A stretch of 64,000 bases of DNA from Synechococcus sp. HK05. Its GTDB lineage: Bacteria; Cyanobacteriota; Cyanobacteriia; PCC-6307; Cyanobiaceae. Below the pieces are notes generated by a model. The model was not told where the DNA came from and ran no database searches. It was given only the letters and a program-made list of their open reading frames with translations. A program made the position numbers and the translations under genes. The stretch is from assembly GCF_019104765.1 (NCBI RefSeq), contig NZ_JAHRXJ010000010.1, positions 62,001 through 126,000 of the forward strand, given 5' to 3'. Below, one piece after another: positions 14,899-29,911 of this stretch. Positions within the stretch are counted from its first letter, which is position 1; every line of letters begins with the position of its first letter.

Positions 14899-15525
14899 TC
14901 AGTCGATCAATGCCCCCTCCAGCTGGGCATCCTGCAATTGGGTATCGCGCAGATCGCAATCACGCAGATCGGCTCCGCGCAGATCACAACCGCGCAGATT
15001 GGCCCCATAGAGGCAACTGCCCTTCAAGACGGCCGCGTGCAGGTTGGCCCCCTGAAGAAACGCAAAACTGAGATCAGCTCCGGAAAAATCGGCATAGCCG
15101 AGATCGGTGAGTTGATCCAAGCCAGAACGGAAGTCGGCTTCCACGAGCCGGGCATTGCACCAGCGGCTCTTCGCCGCCACCACGCCGCGCAGACAACAGC
15201 GATGCATCAGCGCATGGCTGAAATTGGCCCCCTGCAGCCGTGATCCCGACAGATCCGCTTCATGCCAACACGACGACGGCGCATCCAGCTCCGAGAGATC
15301 AGCGCCCCAGATCAAGGCCTGCTGAAAGCAACAGCGATGGGCCTGCGCTCCTCGCAAGGTGGCGTGGCCGAAGCGCGCTTCCTTGAAGCAGCTGCCATCG
15401 AGATTGCAGCCGGACAGGTCGAGGTCGAGGCCATCGATCTCGCCAAGCCTCAGAGAGCGCAGGTCTTTCTCTCCAGCGGCCAACGCCGCACGCAGCCGTG
15501 CCAGATCACTGGGCTGAGATCCCAT
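14899..15525 (-). CDS. Pentapeptide-repeat protein
   Basis: A 208-residue protein largely made of A(D/N)LXX pentapeptide repeats, clearest from residue 40 to the end (GADLSEL, EADLSGS, GANLRGCDLRGADLRDCDL). Such repeats fold into a right-handed quadrilateral beta helix; roles are mostly unknown in cyanobacteria. ATG 15525 shares its last base with the ArsR stop (TGATG arrangement), which fixes the start and indicates coupling. The repeats are rich in Cys, with more than ten residues. Confidence 0.85.
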   Translation of the reverse strand: MGSQPSDLARLRAALAAGEKDLRSLRLGEIDGLDLDLSGCNLDGSCFKEARFGHATLRGAQAHRCCFQQALIWGADLSELDAPSSCWHEADLSGSRLQGANFSHALMHRCCLRGVVAAKSRWCNARLVEADFRSGLDQLTDLGYADFSGADLSFAFLQGANLHAAVLKGSCLYGANLRGCDLRGADLRDCDLRDTQLQDAQLEGALID

Positions 15526-15830
15526 CAGAGGATCGCAGCCAATGCATCCAATTGCTGACGGCGGGAGGCGAGCAACAGCTTCTCGGCCTGGGCCAGCAAC
15601 TTGAACACGGCCTTGTCGTTCACCTCGTAGAACACGAGCGACCCCTCCGGCCGGCGCTGCACCACACCGGCAATGGTGAGCAGCTTGAGGTGCTTCGACA
15701 CCAAAGCCTGACTGAGCCCAGTCTTCTCCACCACAGCCGTGACATTGAGCGGGCCACCTCGCAGAGCCTCGAGCACCGCCAGGCGGTTGGGCTCCGAAAA
15801 CACCTTGAAGTATTCGGCTAGGTGCTCCAT
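15525..15830 (-). CDS. ArsR-family transcriptional regulator (cysteine-free)
   Basis: A 101-residue winged-helix regulator: FSEPNRLAVLEALRGGPLNV, the recognition-helix region TGLSQALVSKHLKLL, and the wing AGVVQRRPEGSLVFYEV. It contains no Cys, so it cannot be a classical thiol-ligated metal or persulfide sensor; a different ligand or inter-subunit His/Asp site is needed. ATG 15830 is chosen because it starts the usual N-terminal helix. It heads a minus-strand run (pentapeptide, Kir channel, methyltransferase, CRTISO-like) and is divergent from the hemerythrin-AcsF operon, which it may also control. Confidence 0.85.
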   Translation of the reverse strand: MEHLAEYFKVFSEPNRLAVLEALRGGPLNVTAVVEKTGLSQALVSKHLKLLTIAGVVQRRPEGSLVFYEVNDKAVFKLLAQAEKLLLASRRQQLDALAAIL

Positions 15831-15903
15831 AGCCCCACGGGTCACGCAGGAGCAAGATAGCGCGCTCCAGCGCTCCAGCGATCTCACTGTTGCGGCATCT
15901 GCA

Positions 15904-15923
15904 GGATCACGATGCCGTTATAT
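15904..15923 (+). promoter_or_regulatory. Putative promoter of the hemerythrin-AcsF operon
   Basis: GGATCACGA (15904-15912), five bases, then TTATAT (15918-15923) as -10, about 32 bases before the hemerythrin ATG. The -35 position is poor (GCATCT), as expected for an activated promoter. The same arrangement, GGATCACGA-N5-TTATA, occurs before the Rieske gene at 26546-26565. Found by eye. Confidence 0.45.
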
Positions 15924-15926
15924 GCT

Positions 15927-15942
15927 GAAGCCGCTTTGCTTC
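15927..15942. repeat. Inverted repeat in the ArsR/hemerythrin intergenic region
   Basis: GAAGC-N6-GCTTC just downstream of the proposed -10 and 14 bases before the hemerythrin ATG. Position and dyad symmetry would suit a repressor such as the divergent ArsR protein. A 5-base arm can occur by chance, so this is only a candidate operator. Confidence 0.3.
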
Positions 15943-15955
15943 GGAGGCCTGCTCC

Positions 15956-16408
15956 ATGGCTGTGCTCCTCGCTGAACCCGTCCGCGCCAAGCCCAGGCCG
16001 TGGCCGCGGCACTGGGTCGACCAAGAGCCGTTACTCGAGCGCCAGCACGACGGGCTCGAGGCCTACCTGGCTGAACTGCTCTGGCTCCATGGCCCCATGC
16101 AACCGGCATGGACGGCGGCAGAAGCGTTGGCCATGGAACGTGGTTGCCGGCGGCTGCTCTGGGACTTGCGCCTCCACCTGCGCCTGGAGGAACGCTGGCT
16201 CTCAGCACAGGGCTGCCTCTGCCCCGGGCACCGCGGCGTGCATCGGCAAGCCATCGACGACGCCAAAGACGCTCTGCTCAAGACCTCCGGCGATCGCCAG
16301 GCACGCCTGGCCTGGCTGCTCGCACTGCAGAGCTGGTTCACCAACCACCGCCACGGCCCCGATGCCACGGCCTATGGCATCGCCCGCTCCAACGCTTCTG
16401 CCCGCTGA
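15956..16408 (+). CDS. Hemerythrin-like oxygen-binding protein
   Basis: A 150-residue protein with the full seven-residue diiron ligand set of hemerythrin in the correct order: His31, His74 and Glu78 (HxxxE), His92 and His96 (HxxxH), His131 and Asp136 (HxxxxD). Hemerythrins bind O2 reversibly at a diiron site. It begins the five-gene operon hemerythrin-acsF-desaturase-glycosyltransferase-oxygenase, and its stop overlaps the acsF start (TGATG). Sensing, storing or supplying O2 to the following oxygen-dependent diiron enzymes is a reasonable inference. The N-terminal 25 residues are extra to the four-helix core. Confidence 0.85.
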   Translation: MAVLLAEPVRAKPRPWPRHWVDQEPLLERQHDGLEAYLAELLWLHGPMQPAWTAAEALAMERGCRRLLWDLRLHLRLEERWLSAQGCLCPGHRGVHRQAIDDAKDALLKTSGDRQARLAWLLALQSWFTNHRHGPDATAYGIARSNASAR

Positions 16409-17442
16409 TGACAACCACCTCTCGCCCGCTTAGCGCTCCCCAGCCCTCGGCGGCCCCCCACCTGAGCGAAGACCTGCTCACGCCGCGGTTCTACACCACC
16501 GAAATCGCCAAGGCGGCGCGCACAGACCTCGAGGCGGAGCGCCCCGCCTTCGAGGCGATGCTGGGCGAAATGGAGGCCGACTACAACCGCGACCACTTCG
16601 ATCGCAAGGCTCCCCTGGATCGCCTGCGCGACCTCGCCCCCGAGCAAAAAGAGGCGTATGAAAGCTATCTGGTGCGCTCCTGCGTATCGGAATTTTCGGG
16701 ATTCCTGCTCTTCAAAGAACTCTCACGCCAGCTGAAGCTGGCCAAACGGCCCGAGCTCAGCCGCCTGTTCAACTTGATGGCGCGCGATGAAGCTCGCCAC
16801 GCGGGCTTTCTGAATCGAGCCTTGGTGGCCGAGGGGATTGTGATTGATTTGCCGTCCCTCAGTGGCAAACGGCCCGTCACCTGGTTCCCGCTGAATTGGG
16901 TGCTCTATTCGGTGTATCTCTCCGAGAAGATCGGCTACTGGCGCTACATCCTGATCGATCGCCATCTCAAAGCCAATCCTGAGAATGCGTTCGCACCCCT
17001 GTTCGACTTCTTCGAGCCCTGGTGTCAGGACGAAAACCGCCACGGCGACATCTTCAACATGCTGATCCGCTGCTGGCCTGGCCTCAACAGCGGGCTGCGC
17101 GGCCGGCTGCTCAGCCGCTTCTTCCTCTGGAGCGTGTTTCTCACCCACAGCCTCACGGTGTGTGAGCGGGGCAACTTCTACCGCCTGCTCGGCATGGATC
17201 CCGATCGCTTCGATGAGGAGGTGATGCGCCAGACCAACCGCACCGCGCGCCGCGCCTTCCCGGTGGTGTTTGCGCTCACACCCGCCTATTTCGAGCTGCG
17301 CGATCAGTTGGTGGACACCTTCCGCCGGATCAAGGCGGCCCAGGGGCAACCCCTGCGCCAGCTTGGCCTCAAGGCGCGGTTTGGCTCGCTGCTGCTGCGC
17401 CAGTTCCTCCAGCCGATGCAGCGCTCTGAGGTGGCTGCATGA
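16408..17442 (+). CDS. acsF: Mg-protoporphyrin IX monomethyl ester oxidative cyclase (AcsF isoform)
   Basis: A 344-residue diiron enzyme that forms the isocyclic ring of chlorophyll using O2. Carboxylate/His motifs are DEARH (Glu128, His131) and DENRH (Glu209, His212), with upstream Glu residues near 54-56 and 95; FYTTE near residue 30 is typical. Length matches the family. Its place behind hemerythrin and near heme oxygenase and HemN parallels the Synechocystis low-oxygen chlAII-ho2-hemN operon, so this is probably the low-oxygen isoform (ChlAII-type); whether a second acsF exists elsewhere cannot be seen. It overlaps both neighbours by 1-4 bases. Confidence 0.93.
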   Translation: MTTTSRPLSAPQPSAAPHLSEDLLTPRFYTTEIAKAARTDLEAERPAFEAMLGEMEADYNRDHFDRKAPLDRLRDLAPEQKEAYESYLVRSCVSEFSGFLLFKELSRQLKLAKRPELSRLFNLMARDEARHAGFLNRALVAEGIVIDLPSLSGKRPVTWFPLNWVLYSVYLSEKIGYWRYILIDRHLKANPENAFAPLFDFFEPWCQDENRHGDIFNMLIRCWPGLNSGLRGRLLSRFFLWSVFLTHSLTVCERGNFYRLLGMDPDRFDEEVMRQTNRTARRAFPVVFALTPAYFELRDQLVDTFRRIKAAQGQPLRQLGLKARFGSLLLRQFLQPMQRSEVAA

Positions 17443-18329
17443 GCACCCTTCGGACCATCCCGCCATTGAAGGAGGGCATCCGCGTGAGCCCCCGCCGTCA
17501 GCGGCGCCGCTGGGGCACCACCGTGTTCATGGTGGTGATTCACGCCCTCGCCCTGGTGGCGTTGTTACCCCGCTTCTGGAGCTGGGAGGCCATCGGCACG
17601 CTGCTGCTGCTCTACTGGCTCACCGCCTGTGTGGGGGTCACGCTCGGCTACCACCGCCTGTTGGCCCATGGCGCCTTCACGGTGCCCCGCTGGCTGGAGG
17701 CGCTGATCACCACCTGCGGCACCCTCAGCTGCCAACACGGCCCGATCGACTGGGTGGGTCTACACCGCCACCACCATCTCCACTCCGACGATCCGGCTGA
17801 TCACCACAACAGCCATCTGGGCTTCTGGTGGAGCCATTTCGGCTGGATGCTGCGGGATGTGCCGGCCCAGCGGTACGTGCACCAGCTCACCCCCGACATG
17901 CAGGAGGTGCCCTACTACCGCTGGTTGAATCGCAACTTCCTGCTGCTGCAGCTGCCCCTGGCGGCGCTGCTCTATGCCATTGGCCAGGGCACGGGAGTGG
18001 GCGGCTGGGCCCTGGTGCTCTGGGGGATTCCACTGCGGCTCGTGCTCGTGTACCACGTCACCTGGCTGGTGAATTCAGCCACCCATCGCTGGGGCTATGT
18101 GAGCCATGCCAGCGGTGATGGCTCCCGCAACAACTGGTGGGTGGCGCTGCTCACCTTCGGCGAGGGCTGGCATAACAACCACCACGCCTACCCCAGCAGC
18201 GCTCGCATGGGGTTCCGCTGGTGGGAGCTCGACCTCACCTGGCAGCACATCCGCCTACTGCATCGTCTCGGCCTGGCGCGCCGCATCCGCCTGGCCCCAC
18301 TTTTACTGAAAACCGATGCAACCATCTGA
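17439..18329 (+). CDS. Fatty-acid desaturase (delta-9 DesC type)
   Basis: A 296-residue membrane desaturase. Three histidine boxes are present: HRLLAH (about 71-76), HRHHHLH (about 109-115) and the GWHNNHHAY box near 243-251, with hydrophobic segments between. Such enzymes put a cis double bond into acyl chains of membrane lipids using O2 and reduced ferredoxin. Its ATG overlaps the acsF stop by four bases. A desaturase in a low-oxygen operon suggests an isoform kept active when O2 is scarce. Confidence 0.9.
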   Translation: MSTLRTIPPLKEGIRVSPRRQRRRWGTTVFMVVIHALALVALLPRFWSWEAIGTLLLLYWLTACVGVTLGYHRLLAHGAFTVPRWLEALITTCGTLSCQHGPIDWVGLHRHHHLHSDDPADHHNSHLGFWWSHFGWMLRDVPAQRYVHQLTPDMQEVPYYRWLNRNFLLLQLPLAALLYAIGQGTGVGGWALVLWGIPLRLVLVYHVTWLVNSATHRWGYVSHASGDGSRNNWWVALLTFGEGWHNNHHAYPSSARMGFRWWELDLTWQHIRLLHRLGLARRIRLAPLLLKTDATI

Positions 18330-19002
18330 TCCGATCAAAGTCTTCATCGGTTTCGACTCGAGAGAGGACGTCGCAGTCAATGTTCTGACAGATTCAATCC
18401 AGGCTCGCTCCAGTAAGCCAGTACAGATTGGGCAGGTCAGGCTGACACAGCTTGAGAGTGTCTACGACCGATCTACACATCCACTCCAGAGCACAGAATT
18501 CTCCTTCAGCAGGTTCCTTGTGCCATGGATGTGCAGCTATCAGGGTTGGGCCATTTTTATGGACGCAGACATACTCTGCCAGGGGGATATCACTGAGCTA
18601 TGGGAGCTACGCGATGAGCGCTATGCAGTACAGGTTGTTCAGCACAACCATAACTGCGCATCTGGACTGAAGTTCCAAGGCATGCCCCAGAGCCCCTACC
18701 AACGCAAGAATTGGTCATCAGTCATGCTGTTCAACTGCGCAAGATGCAAAGCGCTTTCTCCTCACTACGTAAACACGGCTAGCGGGCTAGAACTTCATCA
18801 GTTTGGGTGGACCAAAACCGAAGAAATTGGTGCTCTGCCACCGCAATGGAATGTCCTAGTCGGCGTTCAGGAGGTCCCAGATGATGCGCGACTGCTCCAC
18901 TACACACTCGGCGGGCCCTGGTTCGAAGACTGCCGATCAATGCCCAAGTCAGACCTTTGGGAAAAAGCTCGGCAAGAGCTCAATCACCCTTTAGAGATTT
19001 GA
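18316..19002 (+). CDS. Glycosyltransferase-like protein (GT8 type), AT-richer insert
   Basis: A 228-residue protein with KVFIGFDSRED at the start, FSRFLVPWMC, and IFMDADI, a DxD metal/nucleotide-sugar motif, followed by SSVMLFNC and LLHYTLGGPWF. This order resembles GT8-like glycosyltransferases. GC content is about 49% over its first 110 bases by hand count, against roughly 65% around it, and codon use differs (many AGA, ATA, TCA). It overlaps the desaturase end by 14 bases and lies four bases before the oxygenase gene. It looks acquired into an existing operon. Acceptor and product are unknown. Confidence 0.7.
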   Translation: MQPSDPIKVFIGFDSREDVAVNVLTDSIQARSSKPVQIGQVRLTQLESVYDRSTHPLQSTEFSFSRFLVPWMCSYQGWAIFMDADILCQGDITELWELRDERYAVQVVQHNHNCASGLKFQGMPQSPYQRKNWSSVMLFNCARCKALSPHYVNTASGLELHQFGWTKTEEIGALPPQWNVLVGVQEVPDDARLLHYTLGGPWFEDCRSMPKSDLWEKARQELNHPLEI

Positions 19003-19005
19003 ATC

Positions 19006-19707
19006 ATGGTCTTCAATAAACCATCCACGCCGCAGCTCGACATCACCTCGGCCGCCTACCGCCATGCCTACAGCCGCATCAACGGCATGGTGGTGGTGGG
19101 AGAGGGTCTGGCCGATCGCCACTTCCGGTTGCTCTCACGCGCGATCCCCGAAGATCAGCAGGAGCTGGAGAGGCTGGCGGCCATGGAGGGTCGCCACGCC
19201 AGCGATTTCGTGGGCTGCGGCCGCCATCTGGGGGTGCAACCGGATGTGAGGCTGGCCCGGCAGCTCTTTGCGCCCCTGCACGCCCTGTTTCTCGAACGCG
19301 ACCGCGCAGGGGATCTCGCCGGCTGCCTGGTGATCCAGGGGCTGGTGGTGGAGTGCTTCGCCGTGGCGGCCTACCGCCACTATCTCCCCGTGGCCGATGC
19401 CTATGCCGCCCCGATCACCGCGGCTGTGATCGCGGACGAGGGCGAGCACCTCGGCTATGCCGAGCGCTGGCTGCGGGAGCGTTTTGCCTCCGTGGAAACG
19501 TCGGCTGCCGCGATCGCGAAGCGGGCTCTACCGATCACGCTCAGCATCCTGCAGAGCCTCGCCGCAGACCTTCAGGCGATCGGCATGGATCCGATCGAGC
19601 TGCTGGCCAGCTTCAGCGAGCTCTTCCAGCAGGCACTGGAAACGATTGGTTTCGAGCCGCCTGCGGCCCGCCGGATTCTGGCCGGGGCCGCGGCGGCCAT
19701 GGTCTGA
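19006..19707 (+). CDS. Aldehyde-deformylating oxygenase paralog (cyanobacterial alkane synthase type)
   Basis: A 233-residue ferritin-like diiron protein. It aligns along its whole length with ADO, which converts fatty aldehydes to alkanes and formate with O2. All six iron ligands are present: Glu33, Glu61, His64, Glu116, Glu145, His148, each one residue on from the PCC 7942 numbering. Landmarks AYSRIN, ECFAVAAY and PVADAY are kept. The sequence is otherwise clearly divergent, and no acyl-ACP reductase, the usual neighbour, is here. It closes the low-oxygen operon. It may act on a different aldehyde. Confidence 0.8.
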   Translation: MVFNKPSTPQLDITSAAYRHAYSRINGMVVVGEGLADRHFRLLSRAIPEDQQELERLAAMEGRHASDFVGCGRHLGVQPDVRLARQLFAPLHALFLERDRAGDLAGCLVIQGLVVECFAVAAYRHYLPVADAYAAPITAAVIADEGEHLGYAERWLRERFASVETSAAAIAKRALPITLSILQSLAADLQAIGMDPIELLASFSELFQQALETIGFEPPAARRILAGAAAAMV

Positions 19708-19718
19708 GCGACGCTCAG
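19704..19718. terminator. Palindrome holding both convergent stop codons
   Basis: CTGAGCG-A-CGCTCAG lies at the junction between the oxygenase gene (stop TGA 19705-19707) and the convergent gene (stop at 19715-19717). Both stop codons are inside the arms. There is no T run, so it is at best a weak bidirectional terminator. Confidence 0.3.
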
Positions 19719-20083
19719 CCCACCGGGGCCAACGGCGCCGGAGCGGGAAGCTCCAGCGCCTCATCCATCAGCCAGGCGCTGCTCAGGCTGATGGGCTGCA
19801 ACTGCCCCCCGAAGCGCAACTGCAGCCACTGCGCTGCATGCGGTTCACGGATCGCCAAAGCCTCGGTGCCATCCGCGCTGAGCTGCAGACCGCAGTGCCG
19901 GAGCTCGGCCAGGCGCTCCGGCGACAGATACCAGAGGCCGCCGCTGCCATCCCCGAGATGGCGGCGGCGTTCCTGCATCAATTCGCGCAGCTGACCATCA
20001 CCGCTGAGCTGGCGGCTGGGGGCCAGCAACAACTGCACATCAAGCTGCGACTGGAACGGCTGAGAGGCGAAGGGGTGGGCCAT
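19715..20083 (-). CDS. Hypothetical protein divergent from heme oxygenase
   Basis: A 122-residue protein from ATG 20083 (MAHPFASQPFQSQL...). It is soluble, with several Leu/Gln-rich helices and one Cys (ELRHCGLQL); no family recognised. It is convergent with the oxygenase gene and divergent from heme oxygenase; a palindrome at 20092-20108 lies only nine bases before its start. Being wedged inside the low-oxygen island, it may belong to the same response. Confidence 0.5.
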   Translation of the reverse strand: MAHPFASQPFQSQLDVQLLLAPSRQLSGDGQLRELMQERRRHLGDGSGGLWYLSPERLAELRHCGLQLSADGTEALAIREPHAAQWLQLRFGGQLQPISLSSAWLMDEALELPAPAPLAPVG

Positions 20084-20091
20084 CGGCACGG

Positions 20092-20108
20092 TTGCAACGA
20101 AATCGCAA
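20092..20108. promoter_or_regulatory. Palindrome TTGCAA-N5-TCGCAA, candidate Crp/Fnr operator
   Basis: TTGCAA (20092-20097), CGAAA, TCGCAA (20103-20108); the dyad extends outward to GGTTGC/GCAACC. It differs by one base from the perfect TTGCGA-N5-TCGCAA palindrome before the Crp/Fnr gene at 33801-33817. It lies about 48 bases upstream of the presumed heme-oxygenase transcription start and nine bases upstream of the divergent gene's ATG. Confidence 0.45.
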
Positions 20109-20125
20109 CCAGAGAACTGCGAGAC

Positions 20126-20141
20126 AACAGTAGCGTTATAG
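20126..20141 (+). promoter_or_regulatory. Putative heme oxygenase promoter
   Basis: AACAGTAGCG (20126-20135) directly followed by TTATAG (20136-20141) as -10, about 40 bases before the heme oxygenase ATG. The psbA promoter has AACGGTAGTG followed three bases later by the same TTATAG. The -35 is poor. The shared block may be an activator site or part of an extended -10. Confidence 0.4.
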
Positions 20142-20180
20142 CGTTGCCTTAGTTCGCGCCGCGGTGCCGCGGTTGCATCC

Positions 20181-20873
20181 ATGCTCAATTCCACAGCTCA
20201 GCTGCCTTCGATCTCCGACCACGCCGGCCCCGTCGATGCCCAGCTGCGCAAGGGCTTCGGCCCGCGCGTGCGCAAGCTCCATGCCCGCATCGGCAAGGCC
20301 CATCACCAGGCGGAAGGCATGGCGTTCTCCCGGGCTCTCCTCAACGGGCAAGCCTCGCCCCGCCAGTTGGCCGCCTTGATGCGGGCCCTGGCACCGGCCT
20401 ATGCCCTACTTGAGCAGGCGGGACCGGAGCTGGCTTCTGCCCTGGGTGCCCGCTCGATTCCCTGGACAGCGCTGGAGCGCACCACCGCTCTGCAACAGGA
20501 TCTAGCCGCGCTCTCCAGCGTGGAGGCCACGCCCCCATCAGCGGCCGCTGCGATCTGGTTAGAGCAGCTGCGGCTGCTGGCCCGCCAGGCTCCCCATCGC
20601 TTCATGGCCCATGTGTATGTGCGCTACGGCGGGGACCTCTCCGGCGGCCAGCAGCTGGGGGAGCAGGCCAACGCCATCCTGCGCAGCCACGAGCTGCCGG
20701 CCCTGAACTTCTGGGCCTTTGGCGAGGATCGCTCCAGCCTCAAGCATCAGCTTCACGACGGCTTCGAGGCGATGGAGCTGTCCCCAGAAGACGAGGAGGA
20801 GCTCCTGGAAGAAGCCGTTCTGGCCTTCCACACCACCCAGCGCTTGCTGGCTGAGCTGGCTGCCCTGGCCTGA
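20181..20873 (+). CDS. Heme oxygenase (biliverdin-forming)
   Basis: A 230-residue heme oxygenase that opens heme to biliverdin IX-alpha, the precursor of phycobilins, using O2 and ferredoxin. The proximal ligand is His41 in GKAHHQAE. The distal-helix block RYGGDLSGGQQLGEQA is present, as is the C-terminal acidic helix. Length matches cyanobacterial HO1/HO2. Pairing with hemN 42 bases downstream and with the acsF isoform upstream points to the low-oxygen HO2-type isoform. ATG 20181 is the only sensible start. Confidence 0.9.
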   Translation: MLNSTAQLPSISDHAGPVDAQLRKGFGPRVRKLHARIGKAHHQAEGMAFSRALLNGQASPRQLAALMRALAPAYALLEQAGPELASALGARSIPWTALERTTALQQDLAALSSVEATPPSAAAAIWLEQLRLLARQAPHRFMAHVYVRYGGDLSGGQQLGEQANAILRSHELPALNFWAFGEDRSSLKHQLHDGFEAMELSPEDEEELLEEAVLAFHTTQRLLAELAALA

Positions 20874-20915
20874 GCCGACTGCGCCATTTGTTTCCCCACT
20901 CCCCTCACGTCTGCC

Positions 20916-22277
20916 ATGCCTGCTGCCGCCGCCACCACCCTCAGCCCGATCGAGCTCCTGCTCAAATACGACAAGCCGGTGCCGCGCTACACCAGCTACC
21001 CCACCGCAGCCGCCTTCACCCCGGCGGTGGGGGAGGCAGAGCTGCGGGCACAGTTGGCTCAGCCCGCCACGGCGCCCCTGTCGCTGTATGTGCATGTGCC
21101 CTTTTGCCGCCATGCCTGCTGGTATTGCGGCTGCAACCGAATCACCACGCAGCTGGGCTCAAAGGTGGTGGAGCCGTATCTGGCGGCCTTGGCGAAGGAA
21201 TTGGAGCTGATCAGCGCCGCGATGCCACAGCGGCGACGCCTGGCGCAGCTGCACTGGGGCGGGGGGACTCCCAACTATCTCAATGCCAACGAAACGCGGC
21301 AGCTCTGGCAACTGATCGAGCGCCATTTCGATCTGGAGCCGGATCTTGAGGCCTCGATTGAGGTGAACCCCGAATTCCTCAGCCGTGATGCGGCCCTACA
21401 GCTCCGGGCCCTGGGCTTCAACCGCATCAGCTTCGGCATTCAGGATGCCGACCCCGAGGTGCAGAAGGCGGTGAATCGGGTGGTGCCGGCCGAGCAGCTG
21501 CAGCGGGTGATGGGTTGGCTACGGGAGGCAGAGTTCGCGAGCGTGAACGTGGATCTGATCTGCGGCCTCCCCCTGCAGACGCCCGAACGCTTCCGCACAA
21601 CCCTTGACCTGGTGCAGGAGCTACGCCCCGATCGCATCTCGCTCTTCTCGTTTGCTTACCTGCCGGAGCAACTACCGCTGCAGCGCAAGATCGCGGCTGA
21701 TGCTCTACCGAGCCAGCGAGAGCGGATCGTGATGCTCGAAGACGCGCAACGCCTGCTCTGCTCCGGCGGCTACGAGGCCATCGGCATGGATCACTACGCC
21801 CTGGCTGGTGACAGCTTGGCGGTCGCAGCCAGGAACGGCCGCTTGCATCGCAATTTCCAGGGCTACACCACCGGTGGCGAACTCGACCTGCTGGGGGTCG
21901 GCCCAACGGCGATCAGTCAATTTCCCAACCTGTTCGCGCAGAACGAGCGCGATCTCAAGGCCTACAGCACTGCCCTGGAGCAAGGACAACTTCCGGTGGA
22001 GCGAGGCCTGGTGGTGCGCGATCCAGAGGTGCTGGAGCGCCGTGAGCTGATTCGCCAGGTGATGTGTGAATTCAACGTTGAGCTCGACCTTGAGCGCTAT
22101 GCCCTGGAGTGGCAACAGCTGCAGGAGTTAGCCAGCGATGGGCTGGTGCACCTGAGTGAACACGGCAGCCGCGGCCAGGCCATGGTGACCACCGAGGGCC
22201 GCTGGCTGATCCGCACGATTGCGGCGGTGTTGGATCCCGCGCAGCGGCACCGGGCCTCGGGCTCAAGGCTGGTGTGA
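20916..22277 (+). CDS. hemN: Oxygen-independent coproporphyrinogen III oxidase
   Basis: A 453-residue radical SAM enzyme that decarboxylates coproporphyrinogen III without O2, replacing HemF when oxygen is low. The start PRYTSYPTA is family-typical. The [4Fe-4S]/SAM motif is CRHACWYCGC, followed by the HWGGGTPNYL glycine motif, EVNPEFL, GIQDADPEVQ and the C-terminal HemN domain with GVGPTAIS. It is 42 bases downstream of heme oxygenase, likely one operon. Its end overlaps the convergent DUF3122 gene by 15 bases. Confidence 0.95.
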   Translation: MPAAAATTLSPIELLLKYDKPVPRYTSYPTAAAFTPAVGEAELRAQLAQPATAPLSLYVHVPFCRHACWYCGCNRITTQLGSKVVEPYLAALAKELELISAAMPQRRRLAQLHWGGGTPNYLNANETRQLWQLIERHFDLEPDLEASIEVNPEFLSRDAALQLRALGFNRISFGIQDADPEVQKAVNRVVPAEQLQRVMGWLREAEFASVNVDLICGLPLQTPERFRTTLDLVQELRPDRISLFSFAYLPEQLPLQRKIAADALPSQRERIVMLEDAQRLLCSGGYEAIGMDHYALAGDSLAVAARNGRLHRNFQGYTTGGELDLLGVGPTAISQFPNLFAQNERDLKAYSTALEQGQLPVERGLVVRDPEVLERRELIRQVMCEFNVELDLERYALEWQQLQELASDGLVHLSEHGSRGQAMVTTEGRWLIRTIAAVLDPAQRHRASGSRLV

Positions 22278-22745
22278 TGGCACTGGGGGCAGGCTGCTGA
22301 GGGCAGCCACCTGGTCGGGGCCGAGCAGAAGCTCTGCCTCCCCATCCGCCAAAACCAGCTTGAGATGCAGGGGCAACACCGCACTCGGGCGAGGCTGCAG
22401 GCCCTCCAGATCGAACTGAGCCGACTGGAGCGGCCATGCCGACTCACCCGGCGCCACGAGCTCGGCACTGCGGTTGTCGAGCTGCCAGAGGTGGCCAAGG
22501 CCGTCATCGAGCCGCAAGGGCTCATGGTGATCCAGGGCCGCTGCAGGTGTGCGGGCCGTGAGCCGCAGCCGCCAGCCCGGGGCGTAAGCGGGATCAGGCT
22601 GCGGGAACACCACCAGCCCCCAAGGCTCACCATCGCCATCGCGCAGATCCCAGCGCTGGATCTCCGCCGCCCCGGCGCCGGCCGGAAGGAGTACGAAAAC
22701 CAAGGCCAGCAGGAGGCCCCAAAAAATTTGAGCAGAACTACGCAT
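22263..22745 (-). CDS. Exported DUF3122-like protein
   Basis: A 160-residue protein with a clear signal peptide (MRSSAQIFWGLLLALVFVLLPAGAGA) and a beta-rich mature part with WDLRDGDGEPWGLVVF, DDGLGHLWQLD and PLHLKLVLADG. This pattern matches the cyanobacterial DUF3122 group of exported proteins; function unknown. It is convergent with hemN and divergent from psbA, sharing the 94-base intergenic region. Confidence 0.65.
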   Translation of the reverse strand: MRSSAQIFWGLLLALVFVLLPAGAGAAEIQRWDLRDGDGEPWGLVVFPQPDPAYAPGWRLRLTARTPAAALDHHEPLRLDDGLGHLWQLDNRSAELVAPGESAWPLQSAQFDLEGLQPRPSAVLPLHLKLVLADGEAELLLGPDQVAALSSLPPVPSHQP

Positions 22746-22770
22746 GACCGCACCTCGCGCCTAGGGGCTC

Positions 22771-22791
22771 ATAACGGTAGTGTAGTTATAG
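22771..22791 (+). promoter_or_regulatory. Putative psbA promoter with dyad
   Basis: ATAAC (22771-22775), nine bases, GTTAT (22785-22789) form a dyad; TTATAG (22786-22791) is the -10, 48 bases before the psbA ATG. AACGGTAGTG (22773-22782) closely matches AACAGTAGCG at the heme oxygenase promoter. No good -35 is present, so a protein binding the dyad may control transcription. Confidence 0.4.
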
Positions 22792-22839
22792 GAAGAAGGG
22801 GTGTCCGCCCCGGCTTCCGGTCCTGCACTCTCTGCAACC

Positions 22840-23919
22840 ATGGCCACAACCTCCTTAGCCCCGGCGCGGCAGTCGCGCTGGCTGGCCTTCAGGGACTGGG
22901 TCACCAGCACCGAAAACAGGCTCTACGTGGGCTGGTTCGGCACGCTGATGATCCCCACCCTGCTCACCGCGGCGATCTGTTTCGTGATCGCCTTCATCGC
23001 CGCACCCCCCGTCGACATCGACGGCGTGCGCGAGCCCGTGTCGGGCGGCCTGCTCTACGGCAACAACATCATCACGGCCGCGGTGGTGCCCAGCTCCAAC
23101 GCCATCGGCCTGCACTTCTATCCGATCTGGGAAGCCACCAGCCTGGATGAATGGCTCTACAACGGCGGGCCCTACCAGCTCATCATCTTTCACTTCCTGA
23201 TCGGCATCTTCTGCTGGATGGGCCGCGAGTGGGAACTCAGCTATCGCCTGGGGATGCGTCCCTGGATTGCTGTGGCTTACAGCGCCCCGGTGGCCGCCGC
23301 CACCGCTGTGCTGCTGGTGTATGCCATCGGCCAGGGTTCCTTCTCGGATGCCCTGCCACTCGGGATCTCCGGCACCTTCAACTTCATGCTTGTGCTCCAG
23401 GCTGAGCACAACGTGCTGATGCATCCCTTCCACATGCTTGGTGTGGCTGGCGTGTTCGGCGGCTCGCTCTTCTCCGCCATGCACGGTTCACTGGTCACCA
23501 GCTCCCTGGTGCGCGAAACCACGGAGCAGGAATCACAGAACAGGGGCTACAAGTTCGGCCAGGAGGAGGAGACCTACAACATCGTGGCCGCCCACGGCTA
23601 TTTCGGTCGCCTGATCTTCCAATACGCCAGCTTCAACAACAGCCGCAGCCTGCACTTCTTCCTGGCGGCTTGGCCGGTGGTGGGGATCTGGTTTGCGGCG
23701 TTGGCTGTGGTGAGCTTCTCGTTCAACCTCAACGGCCTCAACTTCAACCACTCCGTGCTCGACAACCAAGGGCGGGTGATTGAAACCTGGGCCGACATCC
23801 TCAACAAAGCCGGGCTCGGCATCGAGGCCATGCACGAGCGCAATGTGCATAACTTCCCGCTCGATCTGGCCGCAGCCAGCGTTGAGCCCGTGGCTCTCAG
23901 CGCACCCGCGATCGGTTAG
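22840..23919 (+). CDS. psbA: Photosystem II D1 protein, D1-prime (low-oxygen) type
   Basis: A 359-residue D1 protein with five transmembrane helices of the photosystem II core. TyrZ (Tyr161), all Mn4Ca ligands (Asp170, Glu189, His332, Glu333, His337, Asp342, Ala344) and His198, His215 and His272 are kept. It carries the three substitutions that mark D1-prime forms, Ala80, Leu158 and Ala286 in place of Gly, Phe and Thr. It also has Glu130, Ala162 next to TyrZ and Leu186. In Synechocystis the D1-prime gene psbA1 is induced at low oxygen, which fits this island. ATG 22840 gives the canonical length; the 39-base upstream extension is not D1. Confidence 0.97.
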
Positions 23920-23958
23920 TGGGGCTTTGAACCCCGCCCAGCTGATTGAGGGCACCAG

Positions 23959-23985
23959 GGGCCTGGCTGCGGCCAGGCCCTTTTT
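23959..23985 (+). terminator. Rho-independent terminator of psbA
   Basis: A 9-base perfect stem, GGGCCTGGC (23959-23967) and GCCAGGCCC (23972-23980), with a 4-base loop, followed by TTTTT (23981-23985), 40 bases after the psbA stop. This is the clearest terminator in the window. Confidence 0.9.
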
Positions 23986-24006
23986 CGTTCCACTGCTTCT
24001 TCCGCC

Positions 24007-24450
24007 ATGCCACAAGCGATGAGCTTCGTGCACCCCCTGTTGATGTGGGTTCTCCTGGGTTTGATGCTTTATTCGGGCTACATGGGTTTTCAGGCCAGCC
24101 GAATTCGCGGCGCCGACGCCGAAACGCGCAAGCAACTGATCCCGAAACAGTTCGGCCGCCGCCATGCCGCTCTGGGCCGCTGGATCGTGATCCTCACGCT
24201 GTTGGGCAGCGCCGGCGGCATGGCTGTCACCTACGCCAACAACGGCAAGCTGATTATCGGCCCCCATCTGCTGTTGGGCCTGGCCGTGCTGGCACTGGTC
24301 ATCGCCACCGCTGCCCTGGGACCAGCGCTGCAGAAAGGCCAGGACTGGGCTCGTGGTGCACATCTGAGCCTCAATGGCTTGATTGTGTTGCTGTTTGGTT
24401 GGCAGGCCATTACGGGCGTTGCCATCGTGAACAAGTTGCTGAGTGCCTGA
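24007..24450 (+). CDS. DUF4079 membrane protein (cytochrome b561-like)
   Basis: A 147-residue protein with four hydrophobic helices and His in or near several of them (FVHPLLMW, GRRHAALGRW, IGPHLLLGL, GAHLSLNG). The arrangement is that of cyanobacterial DUF4079 proteins, thought to bind heme b like cytochrome b561. It begins 22 bases after the psbA terminator and is followed at once by a c-type heme protein, suggesting a membrane electron-transfer pair. Confidence 0.75.
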   Translation: MPQAMSFVHPLLMWVLLGLMLYSGYMGFQASRIRGADAETRKQLIPKQFGRRHAALGRWIVILTLLGSAGGMAVTYANNGKLIIGPHLLLGLAVLALVIATAALGPALQKGQDWARGAHLSLNGLIVLLFGWQAITGVAIVNKLLSA

Positions 24451-24451
24451 G

Positions 24452-25102
24452 ATGAAAGCCCTTCAACTCACGTCGCGCGCGCATCGCCTGTTCCTCAAGG
24501 TTCTGGGCTCGCTGATCGCGCTGCTGCTTCTGGCCTCGCATCCCCTCTCGGCCATGGCCGCCGGCGGCGAAGCCCCTGTGGATCCGGCGGTGCTGGCCAG
24601 GGCGGTGGATCAGATGGAGCAGCTCGATCGGATGCGCATCTCACTGGCCTCAACGCTGGAGAGCAGCACGGAGGAGCCCACCATGGACACCATGCGCGAG
24701 GTCTGCATGCCCGTGGGCAAGCGCGCCATGGCCATCGGCCAGGAGAACGGCTGGACCGTGCGGCAGGTGGCCAGCAAATACCGCAACCCTGACCACGCCC
24801 CCGCCGGTGCGCAGGAAACCGAGGTGATTGATCTGTTGGCCAAGCACCCCGAGATCAACGGACTCTGGGAGCCGGCCACCGCTGAGCAGGGAGCCGGCGT
24901 GAACTACTACCGCCGCATCGATGTGCAGGCCAGCTGCCTGGCCTGTCATGGCAGCAAGGACAGCCGTCCAGCCTTCATCAAAGACAAGTACGGCGACAGC
25001 GATCGCGCCTTCAACTTCAAGCCCGGTGATCTGCGCGGCATGTACGCCGTTCACATCCCCGAGGTGCAGGCCGCCCTGGCGGCACAGAGTCCCGCCGGCT
25101 GA
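24452..25102 (+). CDS. DUF3365 (Tll0287-like) c-type heme protein
   Basis: A 216-residue protein with a hydrophobic signal or anchor (about 13-36) and a CLACH heme c attachment motif (Cys162, Cys165, His166) in a DUF3365/Tll0287-like fold (MREVCMPVGK, RNPDHAPAGAQE, FKPGDLRGMYAV). Exported, probably lumenal or periplasmic; the family is linked to redox sensing. The start codon follows the DUF4079 stop by one base, so the two are co-translated. ATG is preferred over GTG 24443. Confidence 0.8.
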   Translation: MKALQLTSRAHRLFLKVLGSLIALLLLASHPLSAMAAGGEAPVDPAVLARAVDQMEQLDRMRISLASTLESSTEEPTMDTMREVCMPVGKRAMAIGQENGWTVRQVASKYRNPDHAPAGAQETEVIDLLAKHPEINGLWEPATAEQGAGVNYYRRIDVQASCLACHGSKDSRPAFIKDKYGDSDRAFNFKPGDLRGMYAVHIPEVQAALAAQSPAG

Positions 25103-25201
25103 GCGTGTGCCGATGAGCGCATCGCCTGCGCTCACCCTGGTGGGTTTGCTTGTGGTGGTGCGAACGATCCTCAGCGCGGATGGGCCGGCCAGGGCGCAAG
25201 C

Positions 25202-26008
25202 TCACCGATAACCATCCGATCCCGCGAGATCCAAGCTGAACACCTTGATCAGATCCTGAACCTCCCGGGCAGCGAAAACATGCAGGAAGTGGCCGCTGTT
25301 CGGGATGATCTGAATCACGGCATCCGGTCTGGCCTGGCGCAATGCCGCAACCGGTAGTCGTCCCGGATCGCCGGCCAGCGCCAACAGCGGGCAGCGGAGC
25401 TGCTCCAGCGCTGCAGCGGTTGGCCATTGCACGTAGCCGCCGAGGGTCGCGGCGGCCTCCACCACCGGGGAGTGCGCCATGCGCCGCTCGATCAGCGCTC
25501 GGGCGGCTCCCTGTTCTCTGGGATGAAAGAAGTGATCGGTGCGGTTGGGCTGATCCAGGATCCAGGCAGCCTGCGCAGGCAGGCGTCCCTCACGGACGGC
25601 ACGGGCGACCCAGTTGCCCATCCGCTGCAGGGCCTCCACCCGGCGCTGTGGTGGCATCGGCACACTGGAATCCAGCAACACCAGGCCTTGGGCTGCGATA
25701 GCGGGATCAGCCGCCAACAGGCAGGCGAGGGCGCCGCCCATGGAGTGACCGATCAGAAGCGAGCCCGCAAAGCCGGCCTGCAGGATGGCGTGGCGCACGT
25801 GCTGATGAATCTGGTTGGCCACCTGCGCCATGGCCACGTCCATCGCCGGGCCGTGCTCCTGAGGCCAGGCCTCAAGCTCCATCGAGCCCGGGGCCGGCAT
25901 CCAGCTGGGTGCCAACAGCGGGCCTGACAAAGCGGGCTTCAGGTGCTCCGCCTCGTCGCCATGACCGCACCAGCCATGCAAGAAGACGGCGGGCAGCGCT
26001 GCCCTCAT
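25202..26008 (-). CDS. Alpha/beta hydrolase
   Basis: A 268-residue alpha/beta-fold hydrolase: FLHGWCGHG oxyanion region, nucleophile elbow IGHSMGGALA, a late Asp in LLALAGDPG and the catalytic His in NSGHFLHVF. The substrate is unknown. ATG 26008 overlaps the stop of the ferritin-like gene by four bases, so the two form an operon divergent from the Rieske gene. The 99 bases between the DUF3365 gene and this one hold only a possible 32-codon frame. Confidence 0.75.
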   Translation of the reverse strand: MRAALPAVFLHGWCGHGDEAEHLKPALSGPLLAPSWMPAPGSMELEAWPQEHGPAMDVAMAQVANQIHQHVRHAILQAGFAGSLLIGHSMGGALACLLAADPAIAAQGLVLLDSSVPMPPQRRVEALQRMGNWVARAVREGRLPAQAAWILDQPNRTDHFFHPREQGAARALIERRMAHSPVVEAAATLGGYVQWPTAAALEQLRCPLLALAGDPGRLPVAALRQARPDAVIQIIPNSGHFLHVFAAREVQDLIKVFSLDLAGSDGYR

Positions 26009-26532
26009 GGCGTCCACAGCCAATCTTGATGAGACCGGGCTACGCAACGACGAGGGGGTGCGGAGGCTGGTCGGGATGGCCCATCCGGGCAACCTCCGCC
26101 CTGCGTGTTAAGGCACTGTCCGCAGCGCTCGTAGGCCGGCAGGTAGCGCGCTTCGCTGGCCTCGATCTGGTCACGCAAGGCAGCCTGCAGCTCCTCGTCC
26201 TGCACAAGCGACACCAGCTGGCGAACGCGCCGCAAACGCGAACGCTCCTGCTCACTGGCCTGGTTACAGGCCTCCGCTAATGAGTCCGACGCCTGGATCG
26301 GCTCGCCCCTGGGGACGGGAGGCACGGGCAGACCGCACCGGACAAACAAACGCCAAAAGCCATGAACCCGCCTCCGCTCTCCAGCGCGGATCCGGGTGAA
26401 GGGACGCACCTCGCCGTGCTCGCGAATCAGCTGGTCACAACTGGCCCAGCTCTGATGAGCCAGGTCAAGAGCTGCCTGGAGAGCCTCGACCTCCCGAGGC
26501 GAAAGAGCGCTCACACGCACCACCACGATCAA
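26005..26532 (-). CDS. Ferritin-like (DUF2202-like) protein with degenerate metal site
   Basis: A 175-residue protein with paired helices resembling DUF2202 ferritin-like domains: a long helix (about 10-40), [20 protein letters not shown] where the family usually has E-x2-H, and [15 protein letters not shown] where another E-x2-H-type site is expected. Both His are replaced (Arg and Tyr), so canonical diiron binding is doubtful. The Cys-rich end (CGQC, GGGC) may bind metal instead. TTG 26532 opens the frame, but several GTG codons follow, so the start is uncertain. It is divergent from the Rieske gene with 44 bases between. Confidence 0.5.
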
Positions 26533-26545
26533 CCCTCCTATGCTT

Positions 26546-26565
26546 GGATCACGAAATCATTATAC
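26546..26565 (+). promoter_or_regulatory. Putative promoter of the Rieske gene
   Basis: GGATCACGA (26546-26554), AATCA, TTATAC (26560-26565), 11 bases before the Rieske ATG, which leaves a very short leader. The nine-base block and its five-base spacing to TTATA are the same as at the hemerythrin operon (15904-15923). Confidence 0.45.
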
Positions 26566-26576
26566 GAGGACCTTCC

Positions 26577-27134
26577 ATGTCCGATGTCGGTTCCTTCGGT
26601 CACGCCGGGACGGGTGATGCTCCGGATCTCTCGCGCCGTCAGTTGCTCAACCTGCTCACCTTCGGAGCCGTGAGCGGCGTGGCCGTCGGCGCGCTCTATC
26701 CCGTGGCCCGCTTTTTCACTCCTCCCAAACCCCAGGCGGGCCTAGGTGGCGTTCTGGCGCGCGATGAACTGGGCAACCCAATCAATGCCAGCGGCTGGCT
26801 GAGTGCGCATCCACAGGGTGATCGCAGCCTGGTGCAGGGTCTCAAGGGCGACCCCACCTACCTGATCGTCACCGGCGATGAGGCAATCGGCAGCTATGGC
26901 ATCAATGCCATCTGCACCCACCTGGGCTGCGTCGTGCCCTGGTATGCAGCGGCGGGCAAGTTCATCTGCCCCTGCCATGGCAGTCAATACGACGATGCCG
27001 GCAAGGTGGTGCGCGGACCGGCACCGCTCTCACTGGAGCTGGCCCATGTGGAGGTGGTCGACGACCAGGTAGCCCTCACCCCCTGGACCGAGACCGACTT
27101 CCGCGACGGTTCCCAGCCCTGGTGGGCGCGCTAA
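26577..27134 (+). CDS. petC: Rieske iron-sulfur protein (second PetC type)
   Basis: A 185-residue Rieske protein of the cytochrome b6f type. An N-terminal twin-Arg anchor ([12 protein letters not shown], then a hydrophobic helix to about 45) is followed by the [2Fe-2S] motifs CTHLGC (Cys113, His115, Cys118) and CPCHGSQYD (Cys131, Cys133, His134). It passes electrons from plastoquinol to plastocyanin or cytochrome c6. petA is not beside it, as would be expected for the main petC, so this is probably an accessory copy (PetC2-like). Its promoter resembles that of the hemerythrin-acsF operon. Confidence 0.9.
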
Positions 27135-27623: not shown

Positions 27624-27668
27624 GGACTGTTGCTATCACAATAGTGTTGTGCGCAATCGCTGACGGCC

Positions 27669-28352
27669 GTGTCTTCCTCGCCCGCCGACAAGACCACCGA
27701 CCCGGCCCACCTACGCAGGAGCTACGGGCTCGCGGGCCTGCACCGCCGAGATCTCCCCAGCGACCCTACGGAGCTGTTCCAGCGCTGGTTCAACGAAGCC
27801 CTGGCTGCAGACATCCTGGAGCCCAACGCCATGGTTCTGAGCTGCTGCGCTGGCGATCAGCCCAGCAGCCGCACGGTGCTACTCAAGGCGTTTGACGCCC
27901 GCGGACTGGTGTTCTTCACCAACACCCGCAGCCGCAAGGCGCTCGAGATCGCCGCCAACGCCCGGGTGAGCCTGCTGCTTCCCTGGTATGCCCTCGAACG
28001 CCAACTGAGCATCGAAGGAACAGCCACACCGATCAGCGCCACCGAGGCCTTCGCCTACTTCCGCTCAAGGCCGCGGGGCTCCCAGATCGGAGCCTGGGTG
28101 TCGCAACAGAGCAGGGTGATCAGCTCCCGCGCCCTGCTGGATGCGCAGTGGCAGGCCATGCAGGAGCGCTTCCGCCAGGGAGAGATCCCCCTGCCGCCGA
28201 CCTGGGGCGGCTATCGGGTGGAGCCCACACGCTTTGAGTTCTGGCAGGGACGGCCCAACCGCCTGCACGATCGCTTCTGTTATCAACGCGATCCCAGCTG
28301 CGACCACACCAGCCCGCATCCCAACTGGCGGCTCGAGCGACTCGCACCCTAA
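27669..28352 (+). CDS. pdxH: Pyridoxamine/pyridoxine 5'-phosphate oxidase
   Basis: A 227-residue FMN enzyme that oxidises PNP or PMP to pyridoxal 5'-phosphate with O2. Family landmarks: YGLAGL at the start, PSSRTVLLKAFDARGLVFFTNT, the LLLPWYALERQLSIEG strand, SRPRGSQIGAWVSQQS and the C-terminal PNRLHDRFCY followed by WRLERLAP. GTG 27669 starts it; length is as expected. The upstream 40 bases contain TATCACAATAGTG, a partial dyad. Confidence 0.92.
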   Translation: MSSSPADKTTDPAHLRRSYGLAGLHRRDLPSDPTELFQRWFNEALAADILEPNAMVLSCCAGDQPSSRTVLLKAFDARGLVFFTNTRSRKALEIAANARVSLLLPWYALERQLSIEGTATPISATEAFAYFRSRPRGSQIGAWVSQQSRVISSRALLDAQWQAMQERFRQGEIPLPPTWGGYRVEPTRFEFWQGRPNRLHDRFCYQRDPSCDHTSPHPNWRLERLAP

Positions 28353-29198: not shown

Positions 29199-29218
29199 GA
29201 CGATCACCTATGACGATA
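29197..29218. promoter_or_regulatory. Candidate ArsR operator (ATGACGAT repeats)
   Basis: ATGACGAT occurs twice (29197-29204 and 29210-29217), 13 bases apart, at the divergent start of the ArsR and methyltransferase genes. The second copy lies within TATGACGATA (29209-29218), the exact reverse complement of TATCGTCATA at 29881-29890 before the persulfide dioxygenase gene. Confidence 0.5.
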
Positions 29219-29844: not shown

Positions 29845-29880
29845 GCACAACCACCGATTGCAGCAATGGGGCTATGCGTG

Positions 29881-29901: not shown

Positions 29902-29911
29902 CGGTTCGCCC

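Follow-up and report, generated by a model that had tools for sequence, protein, structure and literature searches.

A 64,000-nucleotide stretch of the genome of Synechococcus sp. HK05 (contig NZ_JAHRXJ010000010.1, our C10:62001-126000; hereafter the window) carries, between its positions 15525 and 27134, an island of tetrapyrrole and photosystem II (PSII) genes that is probably a picocyanobacterial low-oxygen programme, run as the regulon of an adjacent ArsR-type regulator that we call ArsR1. The reading is built on gene identities, conserved linkage, co-occurrence of arsR1 with a second cyclase gene (acsF2), and a shared, statistically significant DNA motif. On this reading the low-oxygen cluster itself is of a known kind, and what is new is a candidate for its regulator and another for a cyclase subunit. 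The genome (2.53 Mb in 14 contigs, 99.97% complete) belongs to the picocyanobacterial family Cyanobiaceae, and the GC content of the window is 64%. Genes were called by profile searches using Pfam and NCBIfam/TIGR cut-offs; labels beginning with G, C, L and g are our handles for genomes, contigs, loci and genera. The features of the island are the following:

15525..15887, minus strand: ArsR1, a cysteine-poor ArsR-family regulator (PF01022, E 1.2e-9, 38.3 bits, over cut-off)
15903..15924, plus strand: candidate operator in the gap between arsR1 and hr-acsF2 (TATCACG-type; 29.1 bits, in the training set; exact pattern match)
15956..16408, plus strand: hemerythrin-like protein, a weak call (PF01814, 20.3 bits, below the cut-off of 25.3)
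16408..17442, plus strand: AcsF2 (TIGR02029, 346 bits, over cut-off)
17439..18329, plus strand: fatty-acid desaturase, DesC/DesF-like (PF00487)
18316..19002, plus strand: GT8-family glycosyltransferase-like protein (PF01501)
19006..19707, plus strand: ADO2, a divergent paralog of aldehyde-deformylating oxygenase (PF11266, 197 bits, over the Pfam cut-off)
19715..20083, minus strand: Ycf54-like protein (profile and fold match; the long open reading frame to 20194 is over-extended)
20121..20142, minus strand: candidate operator between the Ycf54-like gene and HO2 (exact pattern match; HO2-type site in other loci)
20181..20873, plus strand: HO2, a divergent heme oxygenase (PF01126, 98.8 bits)
20916..22277, plus strand: true HemN, oxygen-independent coproporphyrinogen III oxidase (TIGR00538, 472 bits, cut-off 325)
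22263..22745, minus strand: DUF3122 protein
22768..22789, plus strand: candidate operator ahead of psbA (D1') (13.6 bits with the HO2-trained matrix, threshold 7.7; one pattern mismatch)
22840..23919, plus strand: PsbA2, the D1' isoform of the PSII protein D1 (TIGR01151; A80/L158/A286)
24007..24450, plus strand: DUF4079 protein (PF13301, E 1.2e-42)
24443..25102, plus strand: Tll0287-like heme protein with a CxxCH motif (PF11845; best PDB match Tll0287, 5b82, E 2.8e-57)
25202..about 26029, minus strand: alpha/beta hydrolase
26005..26532, minus strand: uncharacterised protein, encoded divergently from petC2 (nothing in Pfam at 1e-3)
26545..26566, minus strand: candidate operator in the gap separating 26005-26532 from petC2 (acsF2-trained matrix 15.2 bits, site outside its training set)
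26577..27134, plus strand: PetC2, second Rieske protein of cytochrome b6f (PF25471 and PF00355)

The gene block is real, and homology and synteny lend good support to its low-oxygen reading. An earlier note on this DNA had seen an AcsF isoform, a heme oxygenase, HemN and a D1' psbA together and likened them to the low-oxygen genes of Synechocystis; profile searches and the residues A80, L158 and A286 confirm the quartet, and the match to the gene set of Synechocystis and PCC 7002 holds. Profile matches also recovered the ADO paralog, the DUF4079 protein and the second Rieske protein that it listed, and its DUF3365 redox protein is the Tll0287-like heme protein. ADO2 falls under the NCBIfam equivalog cut-off (198.7 versus 222.65 bits). 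The reported hemerythrin does resemble one but stays below the Pfam cut-off; a gene of this kind lies about 0.8 kb ahead of acsF2 on the same strand in 18 of the 40 loci introduced below. The ferritin-like identity proposed for 26005-26532 found no backing in Pfam at 1e-3, and a relative in Oscillatoria PCC 10802 (28% identical) grazes DUF2202 below its cut-off. The desaturase, counted in the note as an expansion of the known set, is present, but desF already belongs to the PCC 7002 cluster (PMC4500134). The GT8, Ycf54-like, DUF3122 and alpha/beta hydrolase genes had been missed.

The note had named as evidence against itself the case that these were the only copies of acsF, psbA and petC. This is not the case: the genome encodes a second AcsF (46% identical to AcsF2), a canonical PetC at C9:204007 (71% identical to PetC2) and a canonical D1 (80% identical to PsbA2). 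Furthermore, a second heme oxygenase lies on C11 (PF01126, 291 bits, versus 98.8 for HO2), a second ADO on C2 (PF11266, 397 bits, versus 197 for ADO2), and there is a gene for HemF, the aerobic equivalent of HemN. A second AcsF, HO2 and a true HemN are clustered here, with their aerobic counterparts elsewhere. Residues A80, L158 and A286 occur in all 26 D1' orthologs examined, the window included; we take G80A, F158L and T286A to be the signature of D1', the micro-oxic form of D1. Position 186 is Leu in these 26 picocyanobacterial D1' proteins and Phe in the five canonical D1s compared and in the Oscillatoria D1'.

The search of picocyanobacterial genomes that the note had proposed placed an AcsF2 of the same type in 42 of 151 Cyanobiaceae genomes, counted at 69% identity or above, weaker or unlisted matches lying outside the count. 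Pattern and ArsR1 searches used 78 of the 151: the 42 AcsF2-positive genomes and 36 mostly complete AcsF2-negative ones. The window and 39 fetched stretches, from 40 of the 42 positive genomes, formed a set of 40 loci. Since the stretches span about 6-20 kb, per-gene presence counts are lower bounds: HO2 31, HemN 30, ADO2 21, Ycf54-like 20, GT8 19, hemerythrin-like 18, desaturase 13, psbA2 5 and petC2 2. A full-length D1' ortholog (at least 86% identical) occurs in 26 of the 42 AcsF2-positive genomes; four genomes of the same genus that lack AcsF2 were also searched, and none has one. The genomes are related, so that counts are not independent trials and kinship inflates them, though the loci vary in the order and spacing of their genes. 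What stays constant is a core of arsR1 divergent to acsF2 together with HO2-hemN; the other genes are optional. The window holds a rich but not unique example of the island. Because the arrangement of ArsR divergent to acsF2, followed by HO2-hemN, recurs across the family, it is more than chance. Carriers are named as Cyanobium, Vulcanococcus and Synechococcus strains or bins, and include a Black Sea isolate and SynAce01, presumably from Ace Lake.

The earlier note had seen no MarR-type ChlR at the locus, rightly, since the adjacent regulator is ArsR-type and cysteine-poor. It had also set an ArsR gene at the edge; the position stands, but the gene is no accidental neighbour and is the best candidate regulator, given its orientation, co-occurrence and motif. 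In 34 of the 40 loci it is transcribed divergently from acsF2, and an ortholog (at least 78% identity) is present in 40 of 42 AcsF2-positive versus 2 of 36 AcsF2-negative genomes (Fisher P 2.5e-17, uncorrected for relatedness). In both AcsF2-negative exceptions (G029 and G071, genus g29) ArsR1 is divergent to the only AcsF gene; we take G071 to be MIT9313-like. Among the five genera that hold both kinds of genome in the searched set, arsR1 and acsF2 agree in g1, g45, g47 and g51, the exceptions falling in g29. A degenerate arsR1 remnant in G064 (L118), a genome of the window's genus that lacks AcsF2, looks like a sign of island loss. Conserved homology in the regulator begins at Met 15830, cysteines ahead of this residue not being conserved; 50 distinct ArsR1 sequences share 38 invariant positions, and 47 of them contain no cysteine. 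The protein has the winged helix-turn-helix of the ArsR family, about 100 residues long, and its PDB relatives are ArsR, SmtB, NmtR and NolR. With 47 of 50 sequences Cys-less, ArsR1 lacks the conserved cysteine sensing site of the SmtB, RexT and SqrR/BigR types (the check covered cysteine sites). Because cysteine is absent from these 47, ArsR1 should not hold a cysteine-ligated Fe-S cluster or sense oxygen as ChlR does. Three of 24 non-Cyanobiaceae loci (L187, L189 and L194) have, near acsF2, an ArsR homolog that is 44-51% identical to ArsR1 and carries cysteines at its C-terminus.

An 18-bp imperfect palindrome with the core AACG-NTAN-CGTT occurs ahead of arsR1/acsF2, HO2-hemN and psbA2. The sequence TATCACGATGTCGTTATG, with up to four mismatches, is found in the arsR1-acsF2 gap of 25 of 34 loci. 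One matrix was trained on these 25 sites and a second on 28 HO2 sites, a promoter passing when it exceeded the 99% shuffle threshold; six of the 34 HO2 promoters (L037, L038, L060, L063, L067 and L072), scoring below 3, stayed outside the HO2 matrix, HO2 lying closely downstream of acsF2 in L037, L038 and L067, and the psbA2 promoter L242, cut by a contig end, was left out. The two matrices recovered promoters on which they had not been trained: the acsF2-trained matrix passed 21 of 34 HO2 promoters, and the HO2-trained matrix passed 24 of 25 D1' promoters (0.2 expected). With the latter, controls were silent for canonical petC (0/28), hemN (0/33), GT8 (0/19), ADO2 (0/21) and desaturase (0/12) promoters, as they were for MBL-rhodanese (0/9) and TauE (0/7), with 1/11 for ArsR2, 3/12 for pdxH, 1/2 for petC2 and 0/1 for the 26005 side. 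The acsF2-trained matrix passed pdxH in 2 of 12. Canonical psbA promoters (5 loci) reached best scores of only 5.1 (acsF2-trained) and -0.9 (HO2-trained).

Across the 2.53-Mb genome, exact matches to the pattern number two, both inside the island (15903 and 20121). With up to one mismatch, 5 of 44 matches fall in the island, which is 0.5% of the genome (0.21 expected), the acsF2 site among these five being one of those that shaped the pattern. The site at 26545 scores 15.2 bits where 0.08 sites of at least 15 bits are expected per 64 kb with the acsF2-trained matrix; with the HO2-trained matrix its 6.2 bits exceed the petC2-side threshold (5.3) and fall just under that of the 26005 side (6.3). 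A relative of 26005-26532 in G030 (67%) has an exact match about 100 bp upstream. Five loci whose arsR1 is not next to acsF2 nevertheless keep the hr/acsF2 motif (L045, L046, L055, L058 and L071), and their genomes, except for the incomplete G128, have arsR1 elsewhere. Among the exact off-island matches listed, those fetched from eleven genomes lie in six cases about 55-100 bp ahead of HO2-hemN located at least 12 kb from acsF2 (G023, G062, G090, G124, G142 and G102), in one ahead of an unlinked arsR1 (G083), and in one ahead of the 26005 relative in G030. The arsR1 of G023, beside a broken acsF2 copy, has a site, as does that of G083.

A coding origin of the HO2 site was considered, as the long Ycf54-like reading frame overlaps it; we rejected this origin, as the family alignment shows conservation only from a later point and the site is also present in loci with no Ycf54-like match upstream of HO2 (L054, L058, L073, L105, L110 and L114). 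Canonical petC was likewise dropped as a target, its passes with the acsF2-trained matrix (8/28) tracing to another palindrome, CAACATGCTGTTG, and none of the 28 passing with the HO2-trained matrix. This second palindrome is conserved ahead of canonical petC in many of the 28 Cyanobiaceae (among L209-L233) and is a candidate operator of another regulator.

From these patterns we infer the following mechanism, in which the binding of ArsR1, its repressive action and the low-oxygen signal are all conditional. ArsR1 would most likely bind, as a dimer, the 18-bp palindrome ahead of itself and acsF2, HO2-hemN and D1' psbA, with petC2 possibly under its control as well. In oxic cells it would most likely repress these targets. 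When oxygen is scarce ArsR1 would release the DNA, sensing through a cysteine-bound cluster or thiols being unlikely. Derepression would then supply AcsF2 and its Ycf54-like partner for ring E formation, replace HemF with HemN and HO1 with HO2, and add D1' and the second Rieske protein. Repression is the norm in the ArsR family. ArsR1 was not found in 9 of 11 genomes having the 62-67% type as their only AcsF, and because these keep a presumably essential acsF without it, ArsR1 is more easily seen as a repressor than as an activator.

Several observations weigh against this regulon. The acsF2-trained matrix passes only 3 of 25 D1' promoters, while passing 8/28 canonical petC, 2/33 hemN and 1/19 GT8 promoters. 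The reversed pattern with one mismatch still has 16 matches in the genome (versus 44), and in AcsF2-negative genomes the loose pattern occurs at about background rate. Some fetched off-island matches have no island gene beside them (two in G134, one each in G072 and G018), the arsR1 promoters of G037 and G077 have no site, and that of G054 has a weak one. ArsR1 was not found in 2 of the 42 AcsF2-positive genomes (80% and 88% complete). In the AcsF tree described below, Cyanobiaceae AcsF2 stays apart from the ChlAII of other cyanobacteria. Finally, MIT9313-like genomes keep arsR1 and the site ahead of their sole cyclase gene (12.5 bits in G071), and because of this position ArsR1 cannot be a strict off-switch there.

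The neighbourhood downstream of the island also bears on the choice between explanations:

27632..27653, plus strand: weak operator-like site ahead of pdxH (the two matrices give 9.0 and 13.6 bits; one pattern mismatch)
27669..28352: PdxH, directly outside the island
28860..29207, minus strand: ArsR2, with several cysteines, in a module at 28860-32433 with a methyltransferase
29819..31039: MBL-fold/rhodanese fusion (below the Blh cut-off), with TauE also in the module 28860-32433

One alternative accepts the operator but assigns it to another protein, ArsR1 being a linkage passenger that regulates only itself. Six of 40 loci lack arsR1 next to acsF2 and five of these retain the motif, and the missing sites of G037 and G077 point the same way; however, those six genomes, G128 excepted, have an arsR1 ortholog elsewhere, the palindrome sits in the divergent gap of arsR1 itself, and arsR1 and acsF2 were gained or lost together within four genera, so that we regard this alternative as unlikely. 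Another candidate is a ChlR-type MarR activator encoded elsewhere, since ChlR targets these genes in PCC 6803 and PCC 7002 (PMC4500134, PMC13421787). The genome holds a single PF01047 match (29.2 bits, cut-off 24.6), next to a ferredoxin-thioredoxin-reductase-like gene, no search with a ChlR query having been made. We take this reading frame to be SufR rather than ChlR. The published ChlR motif TTMCC-N3/4-GGWAA, considered as the island operator, had no match in 34 acsF2, 34 HO2 and 25 psbA2 promoter regions (0/93), an absence that weighs little because, of 24 regions upstream of acsF2 in other cyanobacteria, just one has the motif. Control by ChlR seems highly improbable here.

It is also conceivable, though we consider it improbable, that the main cue is sulfide and not low oxygen, D1' perhaps protecting PSII from sulfide, a role raised in PMC4500134. 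The island adjoins the module of ArsR2, methyltransferase, MBL-rhodanese and TauE, which is predicted to be of a sulfide/persulfide type, and in G037 (L107) TauE, MBL-rhodanese, ArsR2 and psbA2 lie side by side. The D1' gene thus also travels with this module, and in the window the tetrapyrrole and sulfide-type modules are contiguous. Against a sulfide cue, AcsF2, HO2 and HemN are adaptations to oxygen supply, and the HO2-trained matrix passes next to none of the module promoters listed above. We give little credence to a last explanation, in which the paralogs are constitutive or serve another stress, such as high light or iron limitation, and share a location only through history. Optional members such as GT8 and ADO2, with no known low-oxygen role, would fit it, but three promoter classes share one motif, and the core trio with D1' corresponds to the genes that other cyanobacteria induce when oxygen is low (PMC4500134).

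The reading frame at 19715-20083 is likely a divergent Ycf54, the auxiliary subunit of the cyclase, missed by annotation. A profile of 25 family members matched five PDB sequences at E up to 10, all of them Ycf54 (best 5.9e-7), and PF10674 matched 11 of the 25 at E up to 1 (best 2.8e-4), the window protein not being among them. For an AlphaFold2 model of the Ycf54-like protein (pLDDT 89.1), the best structural matches were five Ycf54 entries (Z 8.3-9.3, 89-94 aligned residues, rmsd 2.9-3.2), the next Z being 5.6; in Foldseek the first eight rows were Ycf54, although the best E was only 6.6e-3. The reported hallmark residues of Ycf54 are A9, F13, E22, E26, D39, F40 and R82 (PMC5317394), and R82 is reported to be needed for contact with AcsF (PMC13297055, PMC5317394). 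In a mapping by hand from the profile alignment, all 25 members keep the equivalents of A9, E22, E26 and R82, whereas the F13 and D39 positions are not kept and F40 is relaxed to L/F/I/M (F in 8/25). The island version thus shares the fold and four hallmark residues with the PF10674 family and differs from it in F13, D39 and F40, in being encoded beside acsF2, and, in the window, in escaping Pfam. In its simplest reading it would be a dedicated partner of AcsF2. A single-query search did not find the gene in 24 loci of other cyanobacteria (L180-L203).

The tree of AcsF proteins, obtained by a quick, unrooted method with SH-aLRT supports from 80 of 102 prepared sequences, placed the Cyanobiaceae AcsF2 and Prochlorococcus AcsF in a separate clade on a long branch (support 100), with other ChlAII on the ChlAI side. 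In sequence, AcsF2 is closer to other cyanobacterial ChlAII (49-59%) than to its own AcsF1 (46%). The sole AcsF of low-light Prochlorococcus is 61-67% identical to AcsF2, and the Prochlorococcus-type group has a support of 99. With the second copy of G002 set aside, the 21 rows of island AcsF2 make up one side of a branch in the best quick tree (support 24.9); we have withdrawn the proposal that Prochlorococcus AcsF is nested within island AcsF2, this support leaving both a sister and a nested position. G002 holds both kinds in one island under ArsR1, its second copy grouping with Prochlorococcus (SH-aLRT 99).

The Ycf54-like gene lies directly downstream of acsF in all 24 Prochlorococcus loci fetched. 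ArsR1 is kept in one of them (L170), several stretches beginning close upstream of acsF. Because synteny and the clade coincide, the Prochlorococcus locus would descend from an arsR1-divergent acsF-ycf54-like locus. A table of 2015 already gave ChlAII as the sole cyclase of several low-light strains and ChlAI as that of high-light ones (PMC4500134); new beyond this table is the link of the low-light cyclase to the island. A genome of genus g17 has an AcsF1-type gene and looks like a high-light Prochlorococcus. Shared descent suggests why low-light Prochlorococcus, a major ocean phototroph, uses an AcsF2-type protein as its sole ring-E cyclase.

A broader reading, offered only tentatively, is that picocyanobacteria exchanged the Fe-S oxygen sensor ChlR for an ArsR without cysteine, to which a shortage of oxygen would be signalled indirectly. 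The signal might be a tetrapyrrole intermediate accumulating once the aerobic cyclase stalls, or it might come by way of the neighbouring hemerythrin, and a single operator would join chlorophyll, bilin and PSII isoforms. Low-light Prochlorococcus would then have dropped the aerobic cyclase, keeping a copy of the micro-oxic AcsF2, with its private Ycf54, as its sole cyclase and as a genomic relic of a low-oxygen past.

The closest known system is the chlAII-ho2-hemN(-desF) cluster that ChlR controls in Synechocystis 6803 and Synechococcus 7002, with the same core enzymes and a desaturase (PMC4500134). Like the PCC 7002 cluster, the island has a divergently encoded regulator, and D1' is a co-expressed partner in Synechocystis (PMC4500134). 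Unlike the ChlR clusters, whose regulator is a MarR protein with an Fe-S cluster, the island has a cysteine-poor ArsR-type regulator and a different candidate operator, includes psbA within the block, and adds Ycf54-like, ADO2, GT8, hemerythrin-like, Tll0287-like and PetC2 genes. Among ArsR-type proteins a close comparison is RexT of Anabaena 7120, a cyanobacterial redox repressor that has a palindromic operator and is reported to be metal-free (PMC13421787). It senses through vicinal C40-C41 and binds ATTCG-N15-CGAAT (PMC13421787), whereas ArsR1 is mostly Cys-less with the candidate motif AACG-NTAN-CGTT. Oscillatoria sp. PCC 10802 (L192) holds AcsF2, HO2, HemN, Des, PetC2, a D1' psbA (A80/L158/A286), MBL-rhodanese and TauE within 21 kb; its HO2-hemN is divergent from acsF2, the order is different, and neither arsR1 nor the Ycf54-like gene was matched there. 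A review of 2015 held that strains with low-oxygen enzymes and no ChlR "have probably developed another mechanism" (PMC4500134), and a candidate gene and DNA site can now be named for such strains. We found no paper on ArsR control of acsF, HO or hemN in the open-licence PMC literature, a scope that excludes most subscription papers. Together, arsR1, the operator and D1' could serve as a genomic marker for picocyanobacteria of oxygen-poor or sulfidic waters.

Other observations concern individual genes. The GT8-like gene has a GC content of 52%, against 64-65% in the surrounding region, yet is kept in 19 of 40 loci. PdxH is pyridoxamine phosphate oxidase, an O2-using enzyme; its weak operator-like site is found in the window and in G134, and the gene lies near ArsR1 in several loci. 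Two equal-scoring psbA/psbD-family fragments, G000:C1:214789-214995 and G000:C8:11968-12174 (L003 and L004), end at most 16 bases from contig ends, and because they reach these ends, further near-identical psbA/psbD-family copies have probably been collapsed in the assembly.

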